Shown here: in pieces, positions 4,829 through 12,533 of the stretch
How positions within the stretch are numbered: the first letter of the stretch is position 1
Layout: the number at the start of each line of letters is the position of its first letter
Source of the DNA: Sphingosinicella sp. CPCC 101087
GTDB taxonomy: Bacteria > Pseudomonadota > Alphaproteobacteria > Sphingomonadales > Sphingomonadaceae
Direction: 5' to 3'
Length of the DNA stretch: 64,000 nucleotides
NCBI RefSeq assembly: GCF_004151485.1
Contig: NZ_SBFF01000001.1
Coordinates: 186,001 to 250,000 of the forward strand
The notes under the pieces: generated by a model
Database searches by the model: none
What the model was told of the DNA's origin: nothing
What the model saw: the letters and a program-made list of their open reading frames with translations, nothing else
Made by a program: the position numbers and the translations under genes

Positions 4829-6478
4829 ATGTTCATGCCGGTCGCTCTTTCGCTTTCTCGCCGCCACAGCTTTCGGGCCAAGGTCGGGGCCGCCCTCGCC
4901 TTGATCCTGCTCGCCGACTTTCTGTTCTTCCTCCAGGAGCCCGGCTGGACGATCGGTCTGTTCGCTCTGGCCTGGGCAGCGGCGTTGGCTGCCGTCGTGC
5001 CCGCGGTGCCCGGAAACCGCCCGGCCCGCCTCGCGCTGGCGCTCGCCTTCCTCTATGCCGCCTTGCTGGTCGACGATCCCGATCCGCTTGGTGTCCTCCT
5101 GTTCGGGACCGCCCTGTCGCTTGCCGCCTTGCTGCCGCGGCGGGATTTCGACGACGCCTGGCGATGGGCGCTGCGGCTGATCCTCCACGGTGTCTCCGCG
5201 GTCATAGCGCCGTTCGCCGACCTGGCGCGGCTGAGCCGGCTTCCCCGTCCGGCCCGTTTCGGACCCCGTGCCGTGATCCGGCTGGTGGCGCTGCCGATCG
5301 CCGGGAGCCTCATATTCCTATCGCTGTTCGCCGCGGCCAACCCGCTGATCGAAAGTGCGCTGGCGATGGTCCGGGTGCCGCAGCTCGACGCCGAGACTTT
5401 CCTGCGGATCATCTTCTGGGCTTTGGTCCTGTGCGCGACCTGGCCGATGTTCCGCCCACGTGCGATCGCCCTGCGGCCAGCGATCAACGGCGGCGCATCT
5501 CCGGTCGACCTGCCGTCGGTCTCGACGGCCTCGATCGCCCTCTCGCTCGCTGCGTTCAACCTGCTGTTCGCGGTACAGAACGGGCTCGACCTTCTCTTCC
5601 TGTGGAGTGGCGCGCCGCTGCCGGAAGGCGTGACGCTCGCCGAATATGCCCATCGCGGAGCCTATCCGCTGATCGCAACGGCCCTGCTCGCCGGGCTCTT
5701 CGTGCTCGTGACGCTGCGACCGGGTAGCGAGACCGCACAGCGACCGATGGTCCGGCGGTTGGTGGTGCTATGGGTCGGCCAAAATCTGCTGCTCGTCGCC
5801 TCCAGCATCCTTCGCACGATCGACTATGTCGAGGCCTATTCGCTGACCGTCCTGCGCCTCGCGGCGCTCGCCTGGATGGCGCTCGTCGCCGTCGGGCTGA
5901 TGCTGATCTGCTGGCGCATGCTGCGGGAGCGCAGCGGCGCCTGGTTGATCAACAACAATGCGCTCGCGGCCGCGATCGTGCTGAGCGCCGCGGCGGCCGT
6001 CGACCTGGGCAGCATCGCCGCCGAATGGAACGTCCGCCACGCGCGCGAAGTCGACGCCACCGGCGCCGAACTGGACCTGTGCTACCTGCGCTCGCTCGGC
6101 CCGTCCGCGCTCGTGCCGCTGGCGCGTTTCGAGGCACGTCTGCCCGACGGCGCATTGCGCGAGCGCGTACGCCATGTGCGCTCACGGCTGCTCGACCGCG
6201 CCCAAGCAGGCGAGGGCGACTGGCGGCAATGGACCTGGCGCAACGCCCGCCGACTCGCCGCCGCCCGCGATGCGTTGGGCGACGCGCCCCCGCCGGCCGC
6301 CCCGGCGCCCTGGGGCCGCGACTGCGACGGTCGACCGCTGCCGCCACAACCGGCGCCGCCCGTGCCGGAGACCGCACCGGAGGTCTCCGCGCCGCCGGAG
6401 CCCCCTTCCGGCGCACCGCCGAGCACCGGACCAGCCAAGCCGTCGGCCGCGCCGTTGACGGCCGGGGTCGAACGATGA
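4829..6478 (+). CDS. DUF4153/DUF4173 multi-pass membrane protein
   Basis: A 549-residue membrane protein with roughly ten hydrophobic segments between residues 15 and 405. A cytoplasmic-looking Arg/Ala-rich region follows, then a Pro-rich C-terminus (about residues 490-549). The core resembles DUF4153/DUF4173 proteins, with blocks such as RAKVGAALALILLADFLFF near the start and LLLVASSILRTIDYVEAYSLT in the second half. Function of the family is unknown. Its stop overlaps the start of the response regulator gene (ATGA at 6475-6478), so it is translationally coupled to a two-component system and may be its accessory sensor or its output. Confidence 0.75.
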   Translation: MFMPVALSLSRRHSFRAKVGAALALILLADFLFFLQEPGWTIGLFALAWAAALAAVVPAVPGNRPARLALALAFLYAALLVDDPDPLGVLLFGTALSLAALLPRRDFDDAWRWALRLILHGVSAVIAPFADLARLSRLPRPARFGPRAVIRLVALPIAGSLIFLSLFAAANPLIESALAMVRVPQLDAETFLRIIFWALVLCATWPMFRPRAIALRPAINGGASPVDLPSVSTASIALSLAAFNLLFAVQNGLDLLFLWSGAPLPEGVTLAEYAHRGAYPLIATALLAGLFVLVTLRPGSETAQRPMVRRLVVLWVGQNLLLVASSILRTIDYVEAYSLTVLRLAALAWMALVAVGLMLICWRMLRERSGAWLINNNALAAAIVLSAAAAVDLGSIAAEWNVRHAREVDATGAELDLCYLRSLGPSALVPLARFEARLPDGALRERVRHVRSRLLDRAQAGEGDWRQWTWRNARRLAAARDALGDAPPPAAPAPWGRDCDGRPLPPQPAPPVPETAPEVSAPPEPPSGAPPSTGPAKPSAAPLTAGVER

Positions 6479-7209
6479 TCCAATGCCCCATGCCCCGCAC
6501 GATCCTGGTCGTCGACGACGATCCACATATTCGCCAGCTGCTGCTGTTCGCGCTCCGCAAGGCCGGGCTCGGCACCGCCGAGGCGGCGGACGGCGAGGCG
6601 GCGCTGGCGGCGATCGCCGAGCAGGCGCCCGATCTCGTCATCCTCGACATCAACATGCCGCAGATGGACGGGCTCGAGGTTTGCCGGCGGATCCGGGCGG
6701 CGGGCGACCTGCCGATCCTGTTCCTGTCGTCGCGGGACGACGAAATCGACCGGGTGCTTGGGATCGAGCTTGGCGCGGACGATTATGTCGTGAAGCCGTT
6801 CAGCCCGCGCGAGGTGGTGGCGCGGGCGATGGCGATCCTGCGGCGAGCCGCCGCCCGGCCTCCGCAGGCGGATTCCGGGCGCGCGTTCATCCATCATGGG
6901 CGGCTGAGCCTCGACGTCGAGGGCTGGCGGGCGAGTTGGGACGGCGAGGATGTGCCGCTCACCGTCACCGAGTTCGGAATCCTCAGGACGCTCGCGGCCA
7001 TGCCTTCCAAGGTGTTCAGCCGCGACGCGATCATCGACCGAGTGCATGGGCCGGGCTTCGCGATGACCGACCGGACGATCGACAGCCATGTGCGCAACCT
7101 GCGCGCGAAGTTCGCCCGGATCGGTGCCGCCGACCTGGTCGAGACTCGACCGGGCATCGGCTACCGGATCGGCGGCTGCACCGGCACGGGCGCCGGCGCG
7201 CAGGGATGA
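6475..7209 (+). CDS. OmpR-family response regulator (CreB-like)
   Basis: A 244-residue DNA-binding response regulator. The receiver domain (about 8-125) has the acidic triad DDD at 14-16, phosphoacceptor D58 (VILDINMP) and the switch Lys in YVVKPF. A C-terminal winged helix (about 145-238) has the typical LTVTEFGILRTL and TIDSHVRNLRAKF motifs. The ATG at 6475 overlaps the DUF4153 stop. A second ATG at 6490 is also possible. Its own stop overlaps the histidine kinase start, so three genes form a tight operon. The CreB resemblance is by overall pattern and not proof of orthology. Confidence 0.88.
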   Translation: MIQCPMPRTILVVDDDPHIRQLLLFALRKAGLGTAEAADGEAALAAIAEQAPDLVILDINMPQMDGLEVCRRIRAAGDLPILFLSSRDDEIDRVLGIELGADDYVVKPFSPREVVARAMAILRRAAARPPQADSGRAFIHHGRLSLDVEGWRASWDGEDVPLTVTEFGILRTLAAMPSKVFSRDAIIDRVHGPGFAMTDRTIDSHVRNLRAKFARIGAADLVETRPGIGYRIGGCTGTGAGAQG

Positions 7210-8801
7210 TCGCCGCCCAGGCCTGGATCGGCGCTGCCCGGGCCTGGATCAGGAGGCATTGGCCACGGCTGCGGCTACGCACGATCCTCCTCGCCACCCT
7301 GTTGTTCGTCGCCGCCTTGCCCGGCCTCGGCGCAGTCTTCCTGAGGGTCTACGAGAATACGCTCGTTCGCCAGACGGAGGCCGAGCTGGTCGCGCAGGGC
7401 GCCGCGCTCGCCGCGGCCGCAACGGCGCTGTGGCCGGGCACCCGGCCGGCCCAGATTCCCGACCCGGCCGACCTGCGCCCTGAGCCGCCCCGCATCGACC
7501 TCAATGCAACCCCGATCCTTCCCGAGCGGCCGGCGCCCACAATCCAGACGAGAAGGGATCCGGCCGCCGAAGCCGCCGCCCGACGTCTGGCGCCGATCCT
7601 GGCTTACACCCGGCGGACCACCCTAGCCTCGATCCTGCTGCTCGACAGAGACGGCAACGTCCTGCTTCCTTCCGAATTCCTCGGCAGCCATGCGGCGTTG
7701 CCGGAGGTGCGGGCAGCGCTTGCCGGTCGGCCGGAGACCGTGCTTCGCCGCAACGGCGACTATCGCCAAGTCTACCGGTTCGAATGGCTGACCCGCGCCG
7801 CTGCCATCCGTGTCCACCATGCGCGGCCGATCGTCGTGGACGGCCGGGTCGTCGGCGTGCTGCTGCTGTCGCGATCGGCGCGCGCCCTGTTCCGCGGCAT
7901 GTACGAGGACCGGGGCAAGATCGCGATCGGCGTGGTCGCGATCTTTGCGATCCTGGTCGTGCTGACCGCCCTGCTGTCGCGAGGCATATCACGGCCGATC
8001 GAGCGCTTGAGCGAAGCCACGCGCGCCGTCGCCCAGGGACGCGGCGAAGTTCCGGATCCGCCGCCCACCGCGGCGATCGAGATCCAGGCTCTTTATGCCG
8101 ATTTCGGAGCCATGGCGGCGGCGATCGACCGCCGGTCGCGCTATCTGCGCGACTTCGCCCATTCGGTGAGCCACGAGTTCAAGACGCCGCTTGCCGGCAT
8201 CAGGGGCGCCATCGAGCTGCTGCAGGACCATTATACCACGATGGATGAGGCGGAGCGCCGGCAGTTCCTCGCCAATGCGGCTGCGGATGCCGACCGATTG
8301 GCACATCTGCTCTCGCGCCTGCTCGATCTCGCCAAGGCCGACATGGCGCGCCCGGGAAACGAAGCCACCGCACCGGTCGACGCGACCGCGCACCGCATCG
8401 CCGATGCGCATCGCGCCGACGGCTTTGCCGTCGACGTTTCGCTGCCGCCTGCAATGCCGCCGGCGATGGTCCCGGAGCGGGTTCTCGAAGCCGCGTTGAC
8501 CAGCCTCATCGAAAATAGCCGCCAGGCCGGCGCCACACGGGTCTCCATCACGGGACGCGAGAACGGGCCGCGGATCGAGGTCGATGTGCTGGACGACGGA
8601 CCGGGGATCCGCCCTGCCGACCGAGAGCGCATCTTCGAGCCGTTCTTCACCGGCCGCCGTGCCGAGGGCGGCACCGGGCTCGGACTTCCCATCGTCAAGT
8701 CGCTGCTCGCCGGAAGTCATGCGAAAATCGATCTGGTCGCCTCGGATCGTGGGGCGTTGTTTCGGCTGAACCTCCCCCGCTCAGACAAGGTCGGAGGCTA
8801 G
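7206..8801 (+). CDS. Sensor histidine kinase with HAMP domain (CreC-like)
   Basis: A 531-residue inner membrane kinase. Transmembrane segments lie at about 27-46 and 239-258, enclosing a periplasmic sensor region of about 190 residues. HAMP follows (GISRPIERLSEATRAVAQG). The HisKA box carries the phosphorylated H323 (SVSHEFKTPLAGIRGAIELL). The ATPase domain has the N-box LIENSRQAGATRV, the G1 box DDGPGI and the G2 box GGTGLGLPIVKSLL. The ATG at 7206 overlaps the response regulator stop in an ATGA. It presumably phosphorylates that regulator. The signal is unknown. Confidence 0.9.
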   Translation: MIAAQAWIGAARAWIRRHWPRLRLRTILLATLLFVAALPGLGAVFLRVYENTLVRQTEAELVAQGAALAAAATALWPGTRPAQIPDPADLRPEPPRIDLNATPILPERPAPTIQTRRDPAAEAAARRLAPILAYTRRTTLASILLLDRDGNVLLPSEFLGSHAALPEVRAALAGRPETVLRRNGDYRQVYRFEWLTRAAAIRVHHARPIVVDGRVVGVLLLSRSARALFRGMYEDRGKIAIGVVAIFAILVVLTALLSRGISRPIERLSEATRAVAQGRGEVPDPPPTAAIEIQALYADFGAMAAAIDRRSRYLRDFAHSVSHEFKTPLAGIRGAIELLQDHYTTMDEAERRQFLANAAADADRLAHLLSRLLDLAKADMARPGNEATAPVDATAHRIADAHRADGFAVDVSLPPAMPPAMVPERVLEAALTSLIENSRQAGATRVSITGRENGPRIEVDVLDDGPGIRPADRERIFEPFFTGRRAEGGTGLGLPIVKSLLAGSHAKIDLVASDRGALFRLNLPRSDKVGG

Positions 8802-8896
8802 GGCAAGCGGCTTCGGGATATCCGGTCGCCGCTCGCGCACCGGCTCCCCCCGAGATGCTCCCTCAGAAATCGAAGTCCTGCAAACGTCGTGAACGA

Positions 8897-9847
8897 TCAG
8901 GCGGCCGGATGCGCCCCGACCGGCGGAACGGTCTCGATCCAGCCGCGCATGGCCTCCAAACCCGCAATCTCCCGCCTCGCCATCGTCGCGACGAGGCCGC
9001 TCCCGTTCCGGGTCGCTTCCTCGAACACCGCGATTCGGCCATCGAGGGTGGACGCCGCCGCGGCGCGGGCCCGCAAAGCGGACCAGCGGATCCGGTCGCT
9101 CGGGTGCCGGGCGGCGAATTCAGCTATGAGGTCCGCGCCTTCCTCGCCGCCTTGATGCGCCGCAAGGGCGAGCATCGGCTCGATCGACGTACGGGTCAGG
9201 ATACCGGCCACCGTACCGCCCTGAACGTCAAATCGATACTGGTCCTTGAATAAGGTGCTGTGTGCGGTCTCGACGATGTTGATCGAGACCGACATTTCAT
9301 CTGCAGGAAGCTGGAGATGGATGTCCTTGTGGGCGCGGTAGAGCATCACCTTGCCAGGCTCGAGCCGGCTGCGCTCGACGAAACGGAGCTCGACCTTTTC
9401 GCCGGGATAGCCGACCACCCCCCCATAATCATATTCGTAATAGTCACTCCAATAGCCGGGCCCGAAATAGCCGACGGTCAGGAACGAGAAATTGTGATCG
9501 TGCGGGATGCCGTAGAAGAATGGATCGGTGCCGCTGTGGCGCACCACGCTGTCCTTGAGCGCGGGCCAGATGTTCGCCCGAACGAGAAACCTGCCGGGCG
9601 CACCGTGGAGCAGGATCACCTGCGCGCTGAACTGATTGTCCCGCAGCTGTCGCCGGCACCTTTCCTTCAGCTCGGCGATCATCAGGCGGGGTAGAAAGTC
9701 GCGATTGTTGGCGAGCTTCCTCAGACCCTCTCCCCAGGAGGCGAAATTCTCCTCGTCCTCGCCGTCGAACCCGCCGGTCTCCAGCCGCTCGACGAGATCG
9801 CCCAGCTCGATCGACTCCTCGGTGTCGGTCGGGATCAGGCGCGGCAT
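8897..9847 (-). CDS. Cupin-like protein with helical C-terminal domain; candidate peptide-modifying oxygenase
   Basis: A 316-residue protein that I cannot assign to a named family. A helical N-terminus (1-75) precedes a beta-rich region with cupin features: HDHNFSF gives H116 and H118, and a later RAHKDIHLQL gives H173 and H177, a plausible metal site. It is also rich in aromatics (YWSDYYEYDYGG, 132-143). The C-terminal part (about 215-310) is helical, HEAT-like. The gene overlaps the preceding 337-residue gene by 13 bases and shares its layout, including a DPFF motif before the barrel (residues 108-111 here, 83-86 there). Both follow a 45-residue peptide gene, so a peptide-tailoring role is inferred. 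Confidence 0.6.
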   Translation of the reverse strand: MPRLIPTDTEESIELGDLVERLETGGFDGEDEENFASWGEGLRKLANNRDFLPRLMIAELKERCRRQLRDNQFSAQVILLHGAPGRFLVRANIWPALKDSVVRHSGTDPFFYGIPHDHNFSFLTVGYFGPGYWSDYYEYDYGGVVGYPGEKVELRFVERSRLEPGKVMLYRAHKDIHLQLPADEMSVSINIVETAHSTLFKDQYRFDVQGGTVAGILTRTSIEPMLALAAHQGGEEGADLIAEFAARHPSDRIRWSALRARAAAASTLDGRIAVFEEATRNGSGLVATMARREIAGLEAMRGWIETVPPVGAHPAA

Positions 9848-10848
9848 GCGGCGCCCTCGCTTGCCGTGATCATCGCCCCGATCTGCTCCTCATCCACGAA
9901 GAAGAGGCTCAATGCCTGCCGCGCCGCGGCGCGGACGTCCGGGTGCGGATCGTCCGACGCCAACTTCCGCAGCGACGGCAGGGCCGCGTCGGCGTCCATC
10001 GCCAGCATCTCCCGCATGACGTGCCAGCGCGTATGGAAATTCGGATTCCCCAGCGCCTCCTCCAGGAGGGGAAAAGCTTCGTCGCGTTCCAGCGCGCGCA
10101 GCAGCGACACCATCATCTCGAGCCGCGAACTCGCCTCGTCCGCACTGGTGGCGCCGACCAGGTGGTGGCCCTCGCTGTCAAATTCGGCACCGACCGGTGC
10201 ACCGCCGGTGCGCGCGACCGCCTGGAAGAAGAGGATGTCGCCGGCCGCATGCTCGATGACGAAGCTCTGGCGGCGCCCGTCGACCAGAATATCCTCGCCG
10301 TCACGGATGCGGCGCCGCTCGACCAGGCGGCAGCGGCCGGCGGAAGCGGCGGAGAAGCCGGCCGTGATCTCCGGCGCTTCCCAGAACGACAAGGTCGCGC
10401 TGCCCGCCTTGATGAAGCGCAGCAGGGTGACGAAGCCCGTGAAGTTGATCGAGGCCGGGCCGCGCCGTCCGGTCTTCTTGGCGGCCAGCATGTCCAGCCC
10501 GGTCACGCCGAACGAGATGGACAGGTCCGGATGATGATAGAGCAGGAGGCTTTCGTGAATCTCGCTCGACACCGGATGGAATGGCGGGCGGAAGAACGGA
10601 TCCGCGCGGCTTTCGGCGAACAACGCTCGCATCAGCGCGTCGAGCTCCCTGTCGCCGTCCATGAAGGCGCGCGCCGCGCCGATCAGCGCTTCAGGGGTTC
10701 TCTCTTGAAGGGCGGCAAGATCCCGCTCGAGCTGCCGCACCAGGGAGTGCGCACCATATTCATGGGCGAAGCGCTCGATCCGCCGCAAGGAAGTCGCCTG
10801 GGCGTCCCGATCGGCAAGCCAGCGCGCGAGGGCTGCGCGGGGAGTCAT
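9835..10848 (-). CDS. Cupin/HEAT-like protein paralogous to the downstream gene
   Basis: A 337-residue soluble protein. The helical N-terminus (1-80) leads to the DPFF motif (83-86) and a beta-rich region (about 95-215). The matching His-x-His of its neighbour is absent here: the corresponding stretch reads HHPDLSISFGVTG. The C-terminus (about 240-320) is HEAT-like, ending DDPHPDVRAAARQALSLF. It lies between the peptide gene (72 bases upstream) and the cupin-like gene (13-base overlap) in one minus-strand operon. The apparent loss of metal ligands suggests a structural or substrate-binding partner. No named family was recognised. Confidence 0.55.
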   Translation of the reverse strand: MTPRAALARWLADRDAQATSLRRIERFAHEYGAHSLVRQLERDLAALQERTPEALIGAARAFMDGDRELDALMRALFAESRADPFFRPPFHPVSSEIHESLLLYHHPDLSISFGVTGLDMLAAKKTGRRGPASINFTGFVTLLRFIKAGSATLSFWEAPEITAGFSAASAGRCRLVERRRIRDGEDILVDGRRQSFVIEHAAGDILFFQAVARTGGAPVGAEFDSEGHHLVGATSADEASSRLEMMVSLLRALERDEAFPLLEEALGNPNFHTRWHVMREMLAMDADAALPSLRKLASDDPHPDVRAAARQALSLFFVDEEQIGAMITASEGAACRA

Positions 10849-10920
10849 CGGAGCGGTCCCCCGATCAGGAAAGAGGGGGCGAAGGCACCGAAGTCCCTTC
10901 GCCCCATAGCTCCGACGATC

Positions 10921-11058
10921 TCAGACGATCGCGTAGAAGATGGCGATTCCGACGCCGAGGCAAACGGGTCCACCAACTTCCTTTTGCTTGAGCGACCCAT
11001 GCATCCCGACGCTGGTGCGCAGCTCCGGGATGGACGTGACGTCGATCTTCTTCTTCAT
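10921..11058 (-). CDS. 45-residue peptide, candidate RiPP precursor
   Basis: A short gene starting at ATG 11058 with AAAGGG nine bases upstream. The peptide has a charged leader-like N-terminus (MKKKIDVTSIPELRTSVGMH), a linker (GSLKQKEV), then Gly-Gly at 29-30. It ends in a hydrophobic 15-residue segment, PVCLGVGIAIFYAIV, with one Cys. This layout (basic/polar leader, GG, hydrophobic core) resembles ribosomally made, modified peptides. It is the first gene of a three-gene operon with two cupin/HEAT-like proteins. No protease or exporter gene is adjacent, and I cannot place it in a known precursor class. Existence of the gene is well supported by the ribosome site and context; function is inferred. 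Confidence 0.6.
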   Translation of the reverse strand: MKKKIDVTSIPELRTSVGMHGSLKQKEVGGPVCLGVGIAIFYAIV

Positions 11059-11471
11059 GCCAATATTCCCTTTAGACAGTCGGGTACCGACAAGAGGAAT
11101 AGCTAGGCGTCCTGCGGCTCGGCCAAGAAACCGCCGGCTGGTTCGATCTTCCGGCCCCGATGCGCGGAGATAAAGGTTCGCCGTGCGCCGGAGGGCGGAA
11201 CAGCCGGGACGGGCGTCCATCCATCCTCGCTCCCATAGTCTCAGGGTTCTCTCAAACATGTCGCCATGGTGAAGAAAAAGTTTACCGTTGTCGGAAACCC
11301 AGCGTTCACCAATCGGTGCCGGGCGCAGTTTACCTGTCGAGGCGGAGGCGGTAGCCCTGCAGCCAGCGAGGCACCCGAAGGCGACGGTGAGGAGCCGGCT
11401 CCGCTCCGATTGCGGCTCCAGCCGGACCTGTCGCCCAAGGGCGGTCCGTGGGAGGCGAGCGGCGGGAGCAT
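11059..11471. other. Intergenic region between peptide operon and phosphotransferase
   Basis: About 410 bases between two divergent genes. Open frames here have no recognisable protein character. A small AT-richer patch around 11264-11300 could hold promoter elements, but I could not identify a convincing -35/-10 pair. Confidence 0.3.
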
Positions 11472-12533
11472 ATGGACAGGAAAGCCGAAAATACGGGCAC
11501 AACCGAGGTGCGCAGCGCGCATCGGTTCGACGTGAAGCGGCTGGAGGCGTGGCTACGCGATCATGTCGCCGGCTATGAAGGACCGCTCTGCGTCGAGCAG
11601 TTCAAGGGCGGGCAGTCCAATCCGACCTACAAGCTCGTTACCCCTGGCCGCGCCTATGTGCTTCGACGCAAGCCGCCGGGGCCGCTGCTGCCCGGCGCGC
11701 ATGCGGTGGACCGGGAATATCGGGTGATCAGCGCGCTCGCCGCCCAGGGTTTCCCCGTCGCGCAGGCCTACGGTCTGTGCCTCGACGAAAGCGTGATCGG
11801 CACCGCCTTCTACATCATGGCCATGGTGGACGGGCGGATATTCTGGGACAGCAGCTTCCCCGAGGTCGCAGCCGCGGAGCGGCCGGCTTATTTCGACGCG
11901 ATGAACGCGACGCTCGCGAGCCTTCACGGGATCGATCCGGAGGCGGCCGGGCTCGGAGACTATGGCAAGCCGGGAAACTATTTCGCGCGGCAGATCGCCC
12001 GCTGGTCCAGCCAGTATCGGGGAGATGTCGATGCCGGCCGGCTCCCGGCGATGGACCGACTGGTGGAATGGCTTCCGGGGAATGTCCCGCCCGACGAGCC
12101 GAGCCCGAGAATCCTCCACGGCGACTATCGCTGCGACAATATGGTCTTCCATCCCGAGCGGCCGGAGGTGTTGGCCGTGCTCGACTGGGAGCTCTCGACC
12201 TTGGGCCATCCGCTCGCCGACTTCAGCTATCATCTGATGATGTACCGGATGCCGGACGCGCTCGCCGGACGCGACCTCGCGTCTCTGAACATCCCGAGCG
12301 AGACGGATTATGTTAAGGCCTATTGCCGCCGAACCGGCCGCGACAGCATTCCTGACCTCGATTTCTACATGGCGTTCAACCTGTTCCGGCTCGCGGGCAT
12401 TCTCCACGGCATCAAGGGACGCCTGATCCGCGGCAATGCGTCCTCGGCCCATGCCGGGGAAATGGTGAAAAGGCTGGAGCCTCTCGCGGAACTCGCCTGG
12501 GCCCAGGCGGTGAAGGCGGGAGCGCCGAACTAG
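11472..12533 (+). CDS. APH-family phosphotransferase (ACAD10-like)
   Basis: A 353-residue aminoglycoside-phosphotransferase-fold protein of the kind associated with acyl-CoA dehydrogenases. Motifs are GGQSNPTYKLV (Gly-rich loop), YVLRRKPPG (Lys that contacts ATP), the Brenner-type catalytic ILHGDYRCDNMVFHP and the metal-binding VLDWELSTLGHPLADF. ATG 11472 was chosen over the GTG at 11448 because GGCGGGAG sits at the right distance. The family probably phosphorylates small hydroxylated acids or acyl-CoA precursors. No dehydrogenase gene is beside it, so the substrate is open. Confidence 0.85.
   Translation: MDRKAENTGTTEVRSAHRFDVKRLEAWLRDHVAGYEGPLCVEQFKGGQSNPTYKLVTPGRAYVLRRKPPGPLLPGAHAVDREYRVISALAAQGFPVAQAYGLCLDESVIGTAFYIMAMVDGRIFWDSSFPEVAAAERPAYFDAMNATLASLHGIDPEAAGLGDYGKPGNYFARQIARWSSQYRGDVDAGRLPAMDRLVEWLPGNVPPDEPSPRILHGDYRCDNMVFHPERPEVLAVLDWELSTLGHPLADFSYHLMMYRMPDALAGRDLASLNIPSETDYVKAYCRRTGRDSIPDLDFYMAFNLFRLAGILHGIKGRLIRGNASSAHAGEMVKRLEPLAELAWAQAVKAGAPN

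Follow-up and report, generated by a model that had tools for sequence, protein, structure and literature searches.

The window analysed here is a stretch of 64 000 nucleotides from Sphingosinicella sp. CPCC 101087 (Sphingomonadaceae; contig NZ_SBFF01000001.1, positions 186 001 to 250 000), and our subject is an operon-like unit of three genes on its minus strand, in the order A–B–C (8897..11058). A preliminary description of this DNA had seen in it a cassette of the kind that makes ribosomally synthesized and post-translationally modified peptides (RiPPs), and the three open reading frames (ORFs) are indeed there as described. Gene A (10921..11058, minus strand) encodes a 45-residue precursor-like peptide, MKKKIDVTSIPELRTSVGMHGSLKQKEVGGPVCLGVGIAIFYAIV, and opens the unit behind the good ribosome-binding-like site that had been claimed for it, AAAGGG (11068..11073, minus strand), which we read from the sequence about 9 nt 5′ of the ATG. 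It is followed after a gap of 72 nt by gene B (9835..10848, minus strand), which encodes a protein of 337 amino acids (P0002), and the end of B shares 13 nt with the start of gene C (8897..9847, minus strand), which encodes a protein of 316 amino acids (P0003).

A C-based scan of a genome collection, made with short peptide patterns, returned 68 loci, mostly from sphingomonads, with one from Alteromonas and one from Lysobacter. In 67 of them, L061 being the exception, the gene immediately upstream of C encodes a B homologue (phmmer, E ≤ 1e-3). The small ORF directly upstream is matched by A in 61 of the 68 loci in a single-sequence phmmer search, the weakest of these matches (E up to 4.1) lacking significance by themselves and being accepted on position; a spurious match (L019, 2655–2762) was dropped from the peptide set. 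A profile built from the 61 peptides added those of L014, L024, L054 and L061, and that of L070 was recognized by eye. A related short peptide is therefore encoded directly upstream of B–C in 66 of the 68 loci, and in the other two (L004 and L064) the contig ends before the site. The preliminary description had made its reading depend on the small ORF recurring beside homologues of the two proteins, and this recurrence is what we observe.

Because the peptide profile is partly circular, we also ran a homology-free control, which asks for an ATG-started ORF of 30–65 codons that ends no more than 220 nt upstream and carries, near its end, a 12-mer with a mean Kyte–Doolittle value of at least 1.9. 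Other genes of at least 200 amino acids in the same loci, called by a simple purpose-made gene caller, served as controls. Such a hydrophobic-tailed ORF precedes 63 of 67 cassettes versus 16 of 316 control genes, so that the placing of the peptide gene ahead of the two proteins is beyond chance. The 67 cassettes include L002 and three second cassettes and leave aside L004 and L064, with their contig ends, and L021, L054 and L061, in which the script did not fix the start of B. The four misses are L019, with a GTG start, and L033, L066 and L067, in which the peptide is present with a hydrophobicity under the threshold. Among cassettes fetched later, a qualifying ORF was found in 8 of 11, versus 4 of 78 control genes (taken from nine of those loci); in one of the three failures, L093, the peptide sits further upstream. 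With a less strict exclusion, which left some cassette genes among the controls, 18/328 and 6/88 control genes were positive. It should be noted that both L002, in the set of 67, and L095, in the set of 11, stand for the paralogous cassette of the Sphingosinicella genome itself, which is thus counted twice.

The peptides are 41–58 amino acids long (73 sequences, with starts set by script) and have two unlike halves. In the alignment, the N-terminal half follows the pattern KIDxxxLPxLxTxVGxxGS; in A it corresponds to the leader-like residues 1–30 (10969..11058, minus strand), with a Gly-Gly at its end. The C-terminal half is hydrophobic; in A it corresponds to residues 31–45 (10924..10968, minus strand), which contain one cysteine. 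The Gly-Gly at positions 29–30 and the hydrophobic tail pointed out earlier are thus real, but the former is not universal: a GGxxC or GGxC sequence occurs in 17 of the 73 peptides, A included, and the others are mostly free of cysteine. The ratio of nonsynonymous to synonymous changes (pN/pS) is 0.23 for the N-terminal half versus 0.65 for the C-terminal half (407 filtered, non-independent pairs, after removal of pairs outside pS 0.05–0.7 or with pN ≥ 0.35), which indicates that purifying selection is stronger on the N-terminal half. Peptide genes also occur in tandem, with three in L047 and two each in L044, in an Alteromonas plasmid and in the second cassettes of L008 and L010. Two traits of RiPP loci are found here, namely a short encoded precursor conserved beside proteins that we infer to be its modifying enzymes, and a conserved leader with a more variable core. 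None of A, B and C matches a known RiPP enzyme or precursor family in Pfam or NCBIfam, nor do the 54 members of the C family in Pfam, and no PqqD-like RiPP recognition element was matched in Pfam at E ≤ 10, Pfam being the only resource used for it, with no tool specific to such elements applied.

The predicted structure of C (pLDDT, predicted local distance difference test, of 94) combines a thiol/cysteine-dioxygenase fold (residues 9–219; 9191..9823, minus strand) with a helical HEAT-like end (residues 222–306; 8930..9184, minus strand). With VIA-align, the best 50 matches listed for this model are all thiol dioxygenases in the broad sense; with Foldseek, matches 1–34 are thiol dioxygenases, and 3-hydroxyanthranilate dioxygenases and others are mixed in further down. 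These comparisons of the model support the assignment of C, by fold, to the thiol dioxygenase (cysteine dioxygenase) superfamily. The three histidines named in the preliminary description are present and lie in two motifs, P115-H116-D117-H118 (9494..9505, minus strand) and D175-x-H177 (9317..9325, minus strand). H116, D117, H118, D175 and H177 are invariant among 54 aligned homologues; in a set of 17 sequences, HDH is found in 16 and HNH in one, with D175 and H177 in all. Moreover, H116, H118 and H177 align in sequence with the HDH/H residues of PF05995 proteins. C thus appears to keep a three-His metal site, of which these residues are the candidate ligands, and is a putative metal oxygenase. 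Searches of sequence alone gave nothing meaningful as a solved relative of C, and the PF05995 profile matched neither P0003 at E ≤ 10 nor any of the 54 members at E ≤ 0.1. HEAT_2 is matched at E ≤ 0.1 by 15 of the 54 members (best 0.0014), P0003 itself being unmatched.

We may wonder at this stage whether the substrate of B and C could be a small thiol or another metabolite, with A as a structural micro-subunit (a membrane anchor) of the enzyme that they would form. The fold of C is that of the small-thiol dioxygenases, its R90, invariant in the 54 homologues, could be a substrate-binding arginine, and many loci share a stable chromosomal setting, with a thioesterase-family pair upstream (in 40 and 39 loci, many of Novosphingobium and Sphingomonas type) and a RuvX gene downstream (in 31), one representative per family having been checked. 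Thiol dioxygenases carry a Ser-His-Tyr triad after the third histidine. In C, S188-I-N190-I-V192 aligns to their S-I-H-V-Y, so that Asn and Val replace the catalytic His and Tyr. The tail of A also evolves faster than its N-terminal half, unlike a packed subunit, and tandem peptides and exporters are left unexplained. We regard this possibility as improbable.

B appears to be a diverged sister of C. The two proteins are related in sequence (hhalign E 1.6e-7), and the model of B (pLDDT 94.4) has a barrel at residues 91–235 (10144..10578, minus strand, from DSSP) for which Foldseek supports a thiol-dioxygenase-like fold. It is followed by a HEAT_2 match in Pfam (residues 246–314; 9907..10113, minus strand; E 3.4e-10). 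No conserved HxH was found in the alignment of B homologues, and B is a putative non-catalytic partner of C. Structure prediction, which had been proposed as a check, thus gave a cupin-type metal-enzyme fold for C and a relative without the conserved HxH for B. As for the layout that the two proteins had been said to share, the DPFF included in it was rejected as a homologous site: in B it precedes the barrel, and in C it comes immediately ahead of the metal motif. A conserved Cys-x-Ala at the C-terminus of B was rejected as well, being the overlapping ATG-CCN-CGN start of C read in the frame of B.

Given its fold, C could be a peptide thiol dioxygenase that converts the cysteine of the GGxxC-type peptides, among them that of the window, to a sulfinate or sulfonate; the Cys-free lineages, in which by eye an Asp or Glu often stands ahead of the tail, would then carry the acidic residue there, and their C would have another role or be a relic. 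Yet the Cys-free cassettes predominate, cysteine being absent from 55 of 73 peptides, their C keeps the same residues as that of the Cys-bearing ones, and the catalytic triad is lost in C. Indeed, no column of C separates the two types of cassette at 85% (L004, L064, L070 and the second cassettes of L008, L010 and L017 being excluded from the comparison). Since most peptides are Cys-free and C is unchanged between both sets at this level, cysteine oxidation cannot be general and, in its simple form, is an unlikely chemistry for C; we hold the version that confines it to the GGxxC type to be very improbable.

We then surveyed the neighbours of the cassette by comparison with exemplar proteins. 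The survey covered 81 loci, made up of the initial 68, a later twelve and the first 25 kb of the window; the flanks are of limited length and the counts are therefore lower bounds. The earlier statement that no exporter is adjacent holds for the window, beside whose cassette no exporter gene was found in these 25 kb, but it fails for the family: exporter genes adjoin the cassette in at least six of the 81 loci (L008, L010, L017, L044, L047 and L093) and in one plasmid copy. L008, L010 and L017 have MsbA-like and membrane-fusion-protein (MFP)-like genes, L044 and L047 have a Ykn/MacB-like set and a second ATP-binding cassette (ABC) pair, and L093, the only locus of its kind among the 81, has a C39-peptidase ABC gene and HlyD beside a peptide with a GA site. 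Pfam supports these exporters (C39, 2.6e-30; HlyD_3, 5e-17; MacB_PCD, 1.1e-40), and Yip1 is above its cutoff in L047, L044 and the plasmid (L114). The count of linked exporters leaves aside the opposite-strand ABC genes of L003, L005, L006 and L011, which stand at a distance of 2.5–6 kb. In the many loci of Novosphingobium and Sphingomonas type that share the chromosomal setting described above, no linked exporter was found within the limited flanks.

The plasmid copy, in Alteromonas stellipolaris pASTE61-200 (CP013927.1; L114:6761-14929), is a full set of pump, peptides, B, C and ABC-2 genes, each of whose eight genes matches its counterpart in L044 or L047 (E 1.6e-12 or better). In the stretch shown, the plasmid annotation gives hypothetical proteins, one ABC ATPase excepted, and leaves unannotated the two peptide genes between the pump and B. 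By eye, each of these peptide genes is followed by an inverted-repeat-like stretch. This was the one record with the cassette in the plasmid collection, and C had no match in the phage collection. Neither PADLOC nor PHROGs matched any of A, B and C at E ≤ 0.1, and a phage origin or a known defence module is for these reasons not supported. Profile sampling, confined to Proteobacteria, detected C in 88 of the 249 genomes sampled from the family of the window, counting the one that contains it (85 of 236 when restricted to those of good quality), in 15 of 398 sampled genomes of the phylum, two of them outside the family, in 2 of 369 genomes of the class of one of these two outsiders, the centre genome included, and in 5 of 337 genomes of the class of the window, one outside the family.

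These results also bear on a different role for the peptide, in which A would be a small membrane toxin or regulator and B and C a dedicated antitoxin-like pair that inhibits or senses it in response to oxygen or redox state and leaves it covalently unchanged. The full conservation of the three candidate metal histidines in C fits catalysis instead, the tandem peptides and the C39/HlyD linkage fit the export of a processed peptide, and the empty PADLOC and PHROGs searches speak against such a pair too. We consider this role unlikely, though the most serious of the competing explanations.

A RiPP-like maturation unit fits the data better than any of these rivals, as it accommodates the constant peptide, its conserved N-terminal half, the oxygenase-like C, the diverged sister, the tandem copies and the exporters. 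We infer that A would be the precursor, in which the N-terminal half serves for recognition or as leader and the hydrophobic tail forms the core. C would be a metal oxygenase, probably using Fe(II), with H116, H118 and H177 as ligands, and B a diverged non-catalytic sister holding C and/or the leader; the HEAT-like ends may offer a surface for binding the peptide or a partner. C would then oxidatively modify A at a site that peptides with and without cysteine share. The product may, in some lineages, be cut at the GG/GA site, exported and probably membrane-active and bacteriocin-like, with self-protection of the Ykn/ABC-2 type; in most of the loci seen, the window included, where no exporter is linked, it may remain in the envelope or leave through an exporter encoded elsewhere. 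That A is a leader-bearing hydrophobic peptide which C, assisted by a non-catalytic B, modifies by oxidation is, in our view, somewhat probable, and the conservation and the folds bear out in part the RiPP-like reading first proposed.

Several observations weigh against this maturation unit. The triad of C is replaced, most peptides lack cysteine, no column of C follows this difference, and exporters adjoin a minority of the loci. At the level of sequence profiles, the likeness of C to cysteine dioxygenases is weak, hhalign giving a probability of about 1% and E 0.057 with three templates, and VIA-align of the B model does not single out thiol dioxygenases, families absent from its listing being not thereby excluded. 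Two of the later control failures belong here as well: the candidate peptide of L103 has a GG and no hydrophobic tail, and L101 has no clear same-strand peptide. As for the exporters, ABC2_membrane_3, matched at 2e-15 in L044, is below its cutoff in L047, YknW (NCBIfam) is below its cutoff in L047, L044 and L114 (27.8, 34.7 and 39.7 versus 110 bits), and the C39 exporter of L093 reaches no NCBIfam cutoff among its best 25 matches listed.

In the window, the cassette is flanked on one side by a convergent two-component kinase gene set and on the other by a divergent phosphotransferase-like gene, both named by the look of their sequences; the former, at 4829-8801, consists of an inner-membrane protein, a response regulator and a histidine kinase (CreD/CreB/CreC-like by look). 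Promoter and terminator scans of 8600-11600 gave nothing above chance, and the stress-type promoter GGAAC-N15-18-CGTT has no exact match in the window. In at least ten of the 81 loci (L006–L012, L017, L095 and L098), an extracytoplasmic function (ECF) sigma factor and a second conserved gene lie upstream of the cassette; Pfam backs the sigma factor in the two tested, and the second gene is without a match above cutoff.

The genome of the window has a second A–B–C cassette (C1:20807-22987, or L095:7766-9987), whose C (C1:22058-22987) is 55% identical, and directly upstream of which stand an ECF sigma factor and the second conserved gene. The same genome contains a weak third peptide-like match (E 0.008), inside a frame of 308 codons, and two C39-domain matches elsewhere. 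Variant copies were seen in other genomes. L104 (G191:C11, about 9235–9823) holds a degraded cassette that keeps the peptide gene, has a partial C and shows no B. A distant C homologue of 234 amino acids (L091:9626-10327) keeps the metal motifs and lacks most of the HEAT-like end. In G006, G042, G100, G146, G162, G176, G211 and G224, the match to C has one in-frame stop; in G006, G100, G162 and G211 this match ends near model position 270, within the HEAT-like end. In L101 (7073-9328), a gene that looks like a JmjC-like cupin stands ahead of B–C, and between the two an ORF on the opposite strand carries the leader-like sequence ELDDVSIAGA.

If the maturation reading is true, peptide modification would be added to what the thiol-dioxygenase fold does, the working unit being an active protein together with its dead counterpart and the substrate in most cases having no thiol, and the frequency of C in the family would hint at an extensive and as yet unmined group of peptides. 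With only three genes, the system is small and directly testable. We found no account of such an A–B–C system among the open-access papers listed by our searches, judged by titles and the starts of abstracts, and the unit is apparently undescribed so far. We see about an even chance that it represents a new RiPP class, in which a HEAT-fused C of thiol-dioxygenase fold and its catalytically dead sister B modify hydrophobic, mostly Cys-free peptides. Such a class would bring a peptide chemistry new to this fold; it would be widespread in Sphingomonadaceae, and Alteromonas and Lysobacter would use it to make bacteriocins of several exported peptides.

Compared with the thiol dioxygenases (cysteine, 3-mercaptopropionate and mercaptosuccinate dioxygenases and other relatives of PF05995), C differs by its HEAT-like end, by SxNxV in place of SxHxY, by having no Pfam family match and by its pairing with an HxH-less sister and a peptide gene. 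The plant cysteine oxidases and ADO act on peptide thiols, whereas the peptides here are mostly Cys-free; to our knowledge, none of these enzymes has a HEAT end. The MNIO (DUF692) and TglHI RiPP systems are reported to be alike in uniting a short precursor, an oxygenase and a partner, an analogy rather than a relationship by any test made; unlike the proteins of MNIO systems, B and C have no match to MNIO families. PbsQ, a cupin-like hydroxylase of the biphenomycin-like pathway, hydroxylates a RiPP residue (PMC12257519), and it is JmjC-related whereas C has a thiol-dioxygenase fold. Double-glycine class II bacteriocins exported by a C39-peptidase ABC transporter resemble L093, with its C39 ABC, HlyD and GA-site peptide, and differ from this single locus by its B and C; the cassette of the window has no such exporter beside it. 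Finally, the Bacillus SDP toxin with its YknWXYZ protection (PMC4887032) recalls L047, L044 and L114, where hydrophobic peptides lie beside a set of Yip1/YknW-like, MFP, ATPase and MacB-type permease genes, a four-component Ykn-type transporter that the cassette of the window does not have. The difference here lies in the small-ORF peptides that accompany B and C and in the below-cutoff YknW matches; SdpAB-type genes were not recognized, in surveys that included no search aimed at them. The likeness suggests, by analogy, that the Alteromonas and Lysobacter versions may be membrane-active peptides made together with their own self-protection.
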